Positions 56,819-60,985 of a DNA stretch of 64,000 bases are shown piece by piece (the first letter of the stretch is position 1; the number at the start of each line of letters is the position of its first letter). Origin of the DNA: Microcystis elabens FACHB-917 (GTDB lineage: Bacteria > Cyanobacteriota > Cyanobacteriia > PCC-6307 > Cyanobiaceae); contig NZ_JACJSZ010000010.1 of the NCBI RefSeq assembly GCF_014698445.1, positions 1 through 64,000 of the forward strand, in the 5' to 3' direction. Position numbers and translations under genes: made by a program. The notes beneath the pieces are model-generated. The model did not search any database and was not told where the DNA came from. It saw only the letters and a program-made list of their open reading frames with translations.

Positions 56819-58756
56819 TTGATTTCCCCGTTCTCCTTCCTTCGCTACGTACAGAAGCAGCTGCTGGCGCGCCGGCTGCTCCTGGTGGTGTTCGACGGCC
56901 TGTTGATCGTCCTGGCCTATCTCGGGGCCTTCATCCTGCGGCTGCCGGATGTCACCGCCCTCAAGGACTTCCTGCCCTACACCATCCAGCTGCTGCCCCT
57001 GGCCGTCCTCACGGGCCTTCCCGTCCTGGTGGTCTCGGGCTGGTACCGGGGGCTCACCCGTTACGCCGGCAGTCACTCCCTCTACGGCCTGGTGCCGCGC
57101 TCGGGCGCGATGGTGCTGACCCTGCTGCTGATCAGCACCCTGATCGGTGGCGTCCAGCCGCCCCGTTCCTTCTGGATCCTCTACTGGCTGCTGTTCACCG
57201 GCGGGGCCATCGCCAGCCGCATCGTTCTGAGGGATCTTCTGATCCATCACCTCGACCAGCGGCAGAACCAAGCCACTGGGGGCTCCCGGGGTGACGCCAC
57301 ACTGATCTACGGCGCCGGATCCTCCGGCATGGGTCTGATGCAGGCCCTGCGCAACGACCCCCGTTTCCGGATCGTCGGCTTCCTTGATGACGCCGAGGCC
57401 CTGCACGGCAGGACCCTCCAGAACATGGCCATCCACTCACCATTGCGGCTTCCCAGGCTGATCGAACGCCACGGGGTGCGCAAGGTCCTGCTCGCCATGC
57501 CGACCATGTCGCGACGCCGCAAGCGGCTGCTCGTGGATCAGCTCACCCACCAGGGCCTGGAGGTGCTTTCGATCCCCTCCCTGGCCCAGATGGCCACGGG
57601 CCAGAGGATCGTTTCCGACCTGCAGCCGGTGGCGATCGAGGATCTGCTCGGCCGTGAACCCTCCAACCCCGACCCGGGGCTGCTCAAGGCCGGCGTCGAG
57701 GGCAAGGTGGTCATGGTGACGCGAGCTGGCGGTTCGATCGGCAGCGAGCTGTGCCGTCAGGTCGTCGCTCTGGGGGCCTCCCGGCTGCTGCTGGTCGAGC
57801 GCAATGAATTCGCCCTCTACGCCATCGAGCGGGAGCTGGGCTCGCCGCCGTGCGACGTCGAGCTTCACGCCATCCTCGGCGATGCCTGTGACGCGGATCG
57901 CCTCACCCTGGTCTGTCGCCGGCACGGGGTCGACACGATCTTCCATGCCGCCGCCTACAAGCATGTGCCGCTGGTGGAAGCCAACCTCTGCGCGGGCATC
58001 GCCAACAACATCGGTGCCACCGAGGCCGTGATCGCCGCCACCCGGGCCACGGGCGTCAGCCGCCTTACCCTGATCTCCACCGACAAGGCCGTTCGCCCCA
58101 CCAACGTGATGGGGGCCAGCAAGCGCATCTGCGAACTGCTGATCCAGGCCGCCGCCGCCGAGATCGGCCCGGGTGGCCCGATCCTCTCGATGGTCCGCTT
58201 CGGCAACGTGCTGGGCTCCTCCGGCTCGGTGATCCCCCTGTTTCACCAGCAGATCTCCAAAGGCGGGCCGGTCACCGTCACCCATCCGGCCATCACGCGC
58301 TACTTCATGACCATCCCGGAGGCCGTCCAGCTGGTCCTGCAGGCCACCGGCATGGCCGTCGGCGGCGACCTGTTCCTGCTGGACATGGGCGAGCCGGTGC
58401 GGATCGCCGACCTTGCCCGCCAGATGATCGAGCTCTCCGGCCTGAGGGTGCGGGACGAGCACAACAGCGACGGCGACATCGCCATCCAATACACCGGCCT
58501 TCGGCCGGGCGAAAAGCTCTACGAGGAGCTCCTGATCAGCGCCGCCGACCAACCCACCCAGCACCCGCTGATCCGCCGGGCCACCGAACCCCATCGGGAC
58601 AGCGAGCAGCTGCGGCCCCTGATCCAGCAGCTGCATGAGGCGCTGGCCCAGTGGGACGAAACCACCACCAGCCAGCTGCTGCGCCGCCTCGTCCCGGAAT
58701 ACGATCCCAATGAAGCGGCTCCGGCCTCCCCTCTGGTCGACGCCCTGGCCCGATGA
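56819..58756 (+). CDS. FlaA1/CapD-type nucleotide-sugar 4,6-dehydratase, altered NAD motif
   Basis: 645 residues from TTG 56819. Four membrane spans open the protein (LLLVVFDGLLIVLAYLGAFI on), then a first Rossmann-like domain (ATLIYGAGSSGMGLMQAL) and the catalytic SDR domain. The family converts UDP-GlcNAc to UDP-4-keto-6-deoxy-GlcNAc (PglF/WbpM). TLISTDKAVRPTNVMGASKR (Thr421-Asp422-Lys423) is conserved, as are HAAAYKHVPLVE and FGNVLGSSGSVIPLF. But the dinucleotide-binding motif reads VTRAGGSIG where the family has VTGAGGSIG: Arg302 (CGA) instead of Gly. It overlaps the exosortase gene by ATGA. Confidence 0.93.
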   Translation: MISPFSFLRYVQKQLLARRLLLVVFDGLLIVLAYLGAFILRLPDVTALKDFLPYTIQLLPLAVLTGLPVLVVSGWYRGLTRYAGSHSLYGLVPRSGAMVLTLLLISTLIGGVQPPRSFWILYWLLFTGGAIASRIVLRDLLIHHLDQRQNQATGGSRGDATLIYGAGSSGMGLMQALRNDPRFRIVGFLDDAEALHGRTLQNMAIHSPLRLPRLIERHGVRKVLLAMPTMSRRRKRLLVDQLTHQGLEVLSIPSLAQMATGQRIVSDLQPVAIEDLLGREPSNPDPGLLKAGVEGKVVMVTRAGGSIGSELCRQVVALGASRLLLVERNEFALYAIERELGSPPCDVELHAILGDACDADRLTLVCRRHGVDTIFHAAAYKHVPLVEANLCAGIANNIGATEAVIAATRATGVSRLTLISTDKAVRPTNVMGASKRICELLIQAAAAEIGPGGPILSMVRFGNVLGSSGSVIPLFHQQISKGGPVTVTHPAITRYFMTIPEAVQLVLQATGMAVGGDLFLLDMGEPVRIADLARQMIELSGLRVRDEHNSDGDIAIQYTGLRPGEKLYEELLISAADQPTQHPLIRRATEPHRDSEQLRPLIQQLHEALAQWDETTTSQLLRRLVPEYDPNEAAPASPLVDALAR

Positions 58757-59691
58757 GCAACACCATCGAGCGACTCACTGGCACCCTCCTGCAGCGGGTT
58801 CCCCCCGCCTGGAAGGCCGCGATCCCGGCCGTTCCTCCGCCCACCCCCCGCAACCTCTGGCTGGCCCTGGCCGCCGCCGTCGCGATCCAGAACGTCGCCG
58901 TCTTCCAGAGCAGCCAGAGCGAGCACATCACCGTCTTTGCCGTGCTGGTGTGGGGGGGGGCGGTGATCTGCATGGAGGACCAGTTCGAGGACCTCCGGCC
59001 CGGTCCGGCAGGCTGGGGACTGGTCATCGGCAGCCTGCTTCTGCTCTGGGTCCTGGCCCGCTCGGCCCTGATCCTCCACTGGGACGGCCTGCTGTTCGCC
59101 CTGGCGCCGATCGGCGGCCTCGCCCTGGGTCTGATGGCGGAGAAACCGGCCCGCCTGGGGCGTTTCCGCGATCCCCTGCTCTGTCTGATGCTGCTGCCTG
59201 GCTTCGCCCTGCTGATGCGCACCCTGCCGGAAGCCCCCATCAGCCTGCTGACGGCGCGCCTGTCCGGCCTCTGGCTGAGCGTGCTCGGACTCGACGTGAC
59301 CGTGAACGGTCGCAGTGTCCTGCTGCCCGGTGGCGGGGTGCGAGTGCTGGGGCCCTGCAACGGGGTGGACCTGATGGCCCAGATCCTCTGCGTGGGCGTC
59401 ATCTTCCTGCTGGCCTTTCCGATCCGCTCCCGGATCAGCCGCGCCGTGGTGCTGCTGGTGGCACCGGTGATCGGGCTGATCTGCAACACCTTCCGCATTG
59501 CGCTGCTGGCCGTGTTCGCGGGCAACGGCCACTCCAAGGGGAGCTGGCTGTTCGATTTCTTCCACGAGAGCACCGGCTCCCTGGTCTTTTCCGGGGTGGC
59601 GGTGCTGGTCTTCGGCATGGTCTACATGCGGTTGCTGGAGCGGGAGCTTCCCCCCCTGCCCTCCCCGCCGCAACCGGGGGAGGGCGCGTGA
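58753..59691 (+). CDS. xrtA-like: Cyanoexosortase A
   Basis: 312 residues with about eight spans. Exosortases are membrane Cys transpeptidase-like enzymes that recognise PEP-CTERM tails of surface proteins, typically encoded in exopolysaccharide loci. The presumed catalytic residues are Cys202 in GPCNGVDLMAQ, Arg248 in CNTFRIALLAV and His271 in FFHESTGSLVF. The cyanobacterial type (cyanoexosortase A) normally has an associated small protein next to it, as here, although that gene looks frameshifted. ATGA overlap upstream and GTGA overlap downstream. No PEP-CTERM substrate gene is seen in the window. Confidence 0.9.
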   Translation: MSNTIERLTGTLLQRVPPAWKAAIPAVPPPTPRNLWLALAAAVAIQNVAVFQSSQSEHITVFAVLVWGGAVICMEDQFEDLRPGPAGWGLVIGSLLLLWVLARSALILHWDGLLFALAPIGGLALGLMAEKPARLGRFRDPLLCLMLLPGFALLMRTLPEAPISLLTARLSGLWLSVLGLDVTVNGRSVLLPGGGVRVLGPCNGVDLMAQILCVGVIFLLAFPIRSRISRAVVLLVAPVIGLICNTFRIALLAVFAGNGHSKGSWLFDFFHESTGSLVFSGVAVLVFGMVYMRLLERELPPLPSPPQPGEGA

Positions 59692-60357
59692 TCACCCCTC
59701 CCCTGCTGGTGCGGTGGTACGGCACGCTGGCCACCATCGCCGCCCTGCTGGCGGCCCAGGCCATCGTGATGCCGCGCTGGCCCGGCGGCTCCCCGCGCCC
59801 TGCCGGCCGACCAGCTGGAGGAGGCTCTCCGGGCCCGGCTGCTGCCGGCGACGACGGCCGGTCCAGGCCCCACCTCCCCCTGGCCGGCGAAGCGCAGCTA
59901 CGAACTGGCCACGTCGGCACCGGTGGTCCTGCCCCTGCGGGAGGGTTTCGAGCTGACCCTGATGGCCGGCGAGGTGCGGCAGCGGTTCAACTTCCAGGCC
60001 GGTGCCATCGGCCGGGACCATGCCAGCCTGAAGCTGCGCCAGCGACGCATCCTGGGCACGCCCGTACCGACGGCGCAGGGCCTGGCCCAGGATCGCCCCA
60101 CTCTCCAGACCTGCCTGGTGGCCGTCCCCGGCCTGGAGCGGTCCTTCGGGGTCACCCGTGAACAGCTCACCACCCTGGCCGATCATCGGGCGGCCGGCCG
60201 CCAGGCCGCCATCGAGCGTGTGATCGGGCTCCAGCCCAGCCGCACCTATGCCTGCACCCTGATCAGCCTGCGCGGGCCCAAGGGGGAGCCCCCCTCCGAC
60301 CGCCTCTGGAAGCAGGTGCTGGCCGAGGTGGAGCCGGTGCTGCGAACCCGGACGTGA
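59688..60357 (+). pseudogene. Cyanoexosortase A-associated protein, apparently frameshifted
   Basis: GTG 59688 overlaps the exosortase stop (GTGA) and opens a typical N-terminus: LLVRWYGTLATIAALLAAQA then IVMPRWPGG, a membrane anchor. From about 59780 the expected continuation is in another frame: LPADQLEEALRARLLPAT, PAKRSYELATSAP, then VVLPLREGFELTLMAGEVRQ and RFNFQAGAIGRD to the stop at 60357. The first frame continues as low-complexity text to 60161. One extra base (or two missing) between about 59770 and 59805 restores a single protein of about 220 residues. This is a real pseudogene or a sequencing error in a C-rich stretch. Confidence 0.8.
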
Positions 60358-60394: not shown

Positions 60395-60985
60395 ATGGTG
60401 GGCCCCCTGCGGCGATTGCTCCTGGGTCTGCGGCGGACCGACCGGCCCCTGCCGCCGCTGCTGGACCGCGCCCTGCCCTGCAACTGGGTACTCACCGGCC
60501 AGCTGGCCATCGGCCCCATGCCGCGCTGCGACAGGCACTGGCAGCAGCTGGAGGAGGCCGGGATCCGCAGCCGCTTCAGCTGCTGCTACCCGGAAGAGGA
60601 GAGCGCCCTGATCGTTCCCCCTGGCTGGAGGAGCGAGCGCGTTTCCCTGCCCGACCACAGGCAGCAGGAACCGCTGCTTCCGGAAAGACTCGCCCTGGCC
60701 CTGGCGAGGGCGGAAGCCCTTGTGGGCGCGGCCGCTCCCGTCTATCTGCACTGCATGGCGGGCTATCAGCGCTCCCCGCTGCTGGCCGTTGGCCTCACGG
60801 CCCGGCTGCGCGGCATCGACCCGCTGGCGGCCCTGGCCTGGGTGCGCCGCTGTCACCCGATGGCCATGCCGATCTACGACCACCTGGTGATGCTCGAGAC
60901 GCTGCTTGCAGTCCGGCCGGCTCCCGCTGAGGAACGGCACACGGGCTCGGTCGGGCCCCGCCTGGGCGAAGGCAGGGGGCCCTGA
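60395..60985 (+). CDS. Dual-specificity/tyrosine phosphatase-like protein
   Basis: 196 residues from ATG 60395. The phosphatase loop is VYLHCMAGYQRSPLLAVGL: Cys120-x5-Arg126 followed by Ser, the CX5R signature. An upstream Asp87 (SLPDHRQQEP), 33 residues before, could be the general acid. The N-terminal part has LPCNWVLTGQLAIGPMPR, like the start of DSP-type folds. It is transcribed toward the Wzc-like kinase on the other strand with a 9-base space, which suggests that it may dephosphorylate that kinase; it is not a Wzb-type low-molecular-weight phosphatase. Confidence 0.8.
   Translation: MVGPLRRLLLGLRRTDRPLPPLLDRALPCNWVLTGQLAIGPMPRCDRHWQQLEEAGIRSRFSCCYPEEESALIVPPGWRSERVSLPDHRQQEPLLPERLALALARAEALVGAAAPVYLHCMAGYQRSPLLAVGLTARLRGIDPLAALAWVRRCHPMAMPIYDHLVMLETLLAVRPAPAEERHTGSVGPRLGEGRGP

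Follow-up and report, generated by a model that had tools for sequence, protein, structure and literature searches.

The partner gene that adjoins the exosortase gene in the window, which is the entire 64,000-nucleotide stretch of DNA analyzed here, is divided between two reading frames by a net gain of one base. This most probably is a real, recent and inactivating single-base break that is specific to this genome. The gene is present in one copy only, its counterparts in relatives are intact, and it accompanies an intact exosortase gene in a genome that also encodes PEP-CTERM-like proteins. The features of the locus are as follows.

58753–59691, forward strand: exosortase, cyanoexosortase A-like, EpsH family, intact, the only full copy found in a search of the genome
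59688–59780, forward strand: 5′ part of the partner gene, an open frame with the GTG start and the N-terminal membrane anchor
59778–59797, forward strand: frame-switch interval, net +1 compared to intact relatives
59791–60357, forward strand: 3′ part of the partner gene, the conserved domain with the motif QTCLV..GVT.EQL..Y.C.LIS (conserved in 28 relatives), ending at TGA 60355
59688–60161, forward strand: product of unshifted translation, 157 aa, consisting of the anchor and then out-of-frame residues up to the stop at 60159

The partner gene starts at GTG 59688 where it overlaps the exosortase stop codon (GTGA). The membrane anchor lies in one frame and the conserved domain in the next, which has stops at 59689, 59767, and 60355, and the frame that begins with GTG 59688 has no stop before 60159. 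When the protein of an intact relative was used as the query, the window was matched in two pieces and two frames: 59688–59804 aligned with residues 1–38 of the relative (82% identity, E = 7e-14) and 59779–60354 with residues 31–222 (81% identity, E = 1.4e-93). Both halves therefore are genuine coding sequence, and the same match rules out that they are chance open frames in DNA of 70% GC. Thus, the split between an anchor read from GTG 59688 and a domain running to 60357 that had been proposed in a first-pass annotation is borne out, as is a switch within ~59770–59805: a DNA alignment of the gene start from 14 genomes, comprising the window and 13 relatives, narrowed the switch to 59778–59797 (the end being approximate), inside that interval. 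Before the switch the window reads ..PRW-P as in most close relatives, and after it P-R-A-L-P-A like the relatives L004 and L032. The gene measures 670 nt compared to 669 nt in most close relatives, giving the net +1. The C-rich tract named for the shift in that annotation is not a long run of C: the site is a short mixed G/C stretch with C runs of 3–4 bases rather than a long homopolymer. No second lesion was seen in the partner gene of the window, the domain of which reaches the same stop codon as in relatives and retains the motif residues. The break accordingly is either recent or artefactual. A search of the genome found no second copy of the gene.

The comparison with relatives that the same annotation had recommended confirmed the break. 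The partner gene is present in 37 of 42 genomes of the genus when that of the window is included, and is in a single frame in 35, that is, in 35 of the 36 other genomes that hold it. Aphanothece cf. minutissima CCALA 015 is one relative with an intact gene. The conserved domain was found in 33 of 60 genomes searched, all of the same genus and none with internal stops. At 27 of 28 relative loci that were parsed, the gene is one open frame from an ATG, GTG, or TTG located at the exosortase stop codon or no more than five bases from it; at the remaining locus (L020) the start is 23 nt past the exosortase stop and the gene also occupies one frame. With the intact relative as the query, one genome (G097) fell into three pieces and the window into two, and all others gave one piece. 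The former is the only other broken partner gene and is probably the metagenome-assembled genome (MAG) CZS25K (locus L037); its break sites differ from that of the window. Read by eye against relatives, the copy in this MAG of Cyanobium sp. CZS25K (L037:2908–3575) is broken twice, in one G run and one C run, as would be expected if the breaks were sequencing errors. The exosortase was detected in 39 of the 42 genomes and the partner in 37, and the only genomes with an exosortase but no partner (G036 and G099) are 78 and 73% complete, respectively. Thus, exosortase and partner are closely linked.

The name cyanoexosortase A-associated protein fits the partner by position and by remote similarity, but the curated model for that family does not match it. 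The partner lies directly downstream of the exosortase in the relatives that were read, as do TIGR04153 (cyanosortA_assc) proteins, with which it also shares one N-terminal membrane helix, a length of ~220 aa, and two conserved cysteines that flank a (G/T)VT-EQ-(L/F) motif. However, TIGR04153 (cut-off 100 bits) gave no match to the window protein at E = 10, none to three intact relatives, and none in the same genome. An hhalign comparison of a profile of 28 relatives with 19 proteins fetched with TIGR04153 aligned 176 columns with E = 1.1e-4 and a probability of only 56%, and the profiles share the membrane helix, the sequence (G/T)VT-x-EQ-(L/F) after a cysteine, and a second cysteine near the end. 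The AlphaFold model of the partner (mean pLDDT 43) was too poor for fold comparison. The partner is thus probably a remote relative of TIGR04153 rather than a tested member, and the Cyanobium-type proteins that the curated model misses form a divergent group. The CrtB-associated protein TIGR04533 (Npun_F0457 of Nostoc punctiforme) also is encoded downstream of a cyanoexosortase (PMC12188702). It is the counterpart that accompanies cyanoexosortase B, no function has been assigned to it (PMC12188702), and it resembles the window partner in position.

The exosortase of the window matches the broad family PF09721 with E = 2.6e-28. With the cyanoexosortase A model TIGR03763 it yielded E = 2.5e-38 and 132 bits, which is under the curated cut-off of 150 bits, and no genome of the genus scored above that cut-off. 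In a relative (G095, C10:168112–168888) the exosortase match contains one in-frame TAG. A DNA pattern for PGPLPLLG matched five times in the genome of the window compared to zero for the reversed control, and each match lies in an open frame that terminates 26–38 codons further on in a basic stretch, for example SRRLRxR. This arrangement resembles the layout of a PEP-CTERM sorting signal and would place such signals in at least five proteins:

C28:53891, C37:46671, C48:3768, C67:162072, and C100:83554 of the same genome (L183–L187): PEP-CTERM-like C-termini, VPGPLPLLG..SRRLR or close

The TIGR02595 and PF07589 models found no PEP-CTERM protein above cut-off in this genome, and the five PEP-CTERM-like proteins fall below. 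With a full exosortase and five PEP-CTERM-like tails, the sorting system appears to have both enzyme and substrates.

If the break is a real mutation, a single extra base would split the partner gene and make it a recent pseudogene in the strain or the sequenced population. Normal translation from GTG 59688 would produce the membrane anchor plus ~125 out-of-frame residues before the stop at 60159, and the conserved domain would be absent or would be synthesized only without its anchor. In that event the extra base would truly be in the cell and function would be lost. Substitutions assigned to the window branch in the partner gene comprised 12.5 nonsynonymous to 6.5 synonymous changes compared to 16 to 29 on other branches (Fisher p = 0.056). 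As neighboring genes on the window branch lean likewise to nonsynonymous changes, one with p = 0.011, the raised value is no evidence for decay or loss of constraint, and dN/dS did not separate a sequencing error from a pseudogene. The lesion resembles ordinary single-indel pseudogenes of bacteria, which likewise carry a single lesion in an otherwise undecayed gene and have intact orthologs in close relatives; no difference was seen.

An assembly or sequencing error, with an intact partner gene in the organism, is a possible but less favored explanation. It is consistent with the 35 related genomes in which the gene is intact, with the very GC-rich switch site, with the presence of the remaining sorting system, and with the double break in G and C homopolymers of the MAG copy. 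Indeed, the intact-looking exosortase and the PEP-CTERM-like proteins would favor a functional partner and thereby either an error or a mutation of very recent date. Two points speak against an error: no long homopolymer occurs at the break in the window, and the surveyed part of the assembly yielded no other convincing frame break. Frame breaks were sought by comparing 565 kb of the genome with 1.6 Mb of a syntenic genome (G022). Five of 158 genes (46,211 aa) of the latter were flagged: four can be explained by merged or antisense open reading frames or by extended starts, and the fifth, a cobL-like gene, has an ambiguous start. The cobL-like gene, which is outside the window (C2, ~87045), is one base off its counterpart in the syntenic genome just past a possible ATG, and its actual start may be farther downstream. 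The survey is blind to the partner gene itself, since the open frame of that gene extends into the exosortase. Scanning for mismatch periodicity as well gave only a few candidates, which seem to be gene edges or intergenic sequence. Judged from these scans, the assembly appears not to be rich in frame errors. The contigs are numbered as if names based on length rank had been sorted alphabetically, and the length distribution ends in a tail of ~2 kb contigs:

C1, 200,106 nt; C2, 95,036 nt; C3–C12, 2,584 down to 2,028 nt; C13, 78,812 nt
C34, 192,549 nt; C45, 188,882 nt; C56, 182,281 nt

This numbering and the small-contig tail suggest a short-read assembly, in which consensus indels would be rare. 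It is this character of the assembly, together with the absence of any other convincing break in ~150 orthologous genes, that favors a real mutation over an error. Thus, of the three readings offered by the first-pass annotation, inactivation and error both remain, with the evidence leaning to mutation, and programmed frameshifting is not supported.

Programmed or spontaneous +1 ribosomal frameshifting that yields the full protein is highly unlikely. The zero frame does contain CCC with a G after it, and +1 slippage at this proline codon could occur at a low level. However, the shift site is common to no relative, all of the 35 being read in one frame; there is no stop codon at the shift, unlike in prfB; flanking RNA structure was no stronger than in shuffled sequences (z = 0.34 and 0.99); and the C runs of 3–4 bases are too short, as they also are for usual transcriptional slippage. 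A DNA hairpin at the switch site likewise was no stronger than chance. A newly gained +1 recoding at the proline codon, with slippage setting the amount of joined partner protein, would be more improbable still. It is equally hard to credit that the two frames are two genes, one for an anchor peptide and another for a soluble domain with its own start: GTG 59923 does open a 144-aa open reading frame in the second frame, but relatives have a single protein spanning both parts, no Shine-Dalgarno-like sequence was apparent by eye before 59923, and the second frame also is conserved upstream of this position.

The confirmed break itself is ordinary and matters little outside this genome. Should the mutation be real, the strain would be a naturally occurring knock-out of this conserved partner in which the exosortase and PEP-CTERM-like proteins are intact, and could reveal whether sorting depends on the partner. 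More generally, the current TIGR04153 model misses the Cyanobium-type partner family and the PEP-CTERM models miss likely substrates.

The next gene (60395–60985) encodes a dual-specificity/tyrosine phosphatase-like protein with an HCMAGYQRSP motif (PF22784, E = 3.6e-4, below cut-off). It is conserved behind the partner gene in relatives; in the Aphanothece copy (L031) a stop codon occurs earlier, close to the C-terminus.
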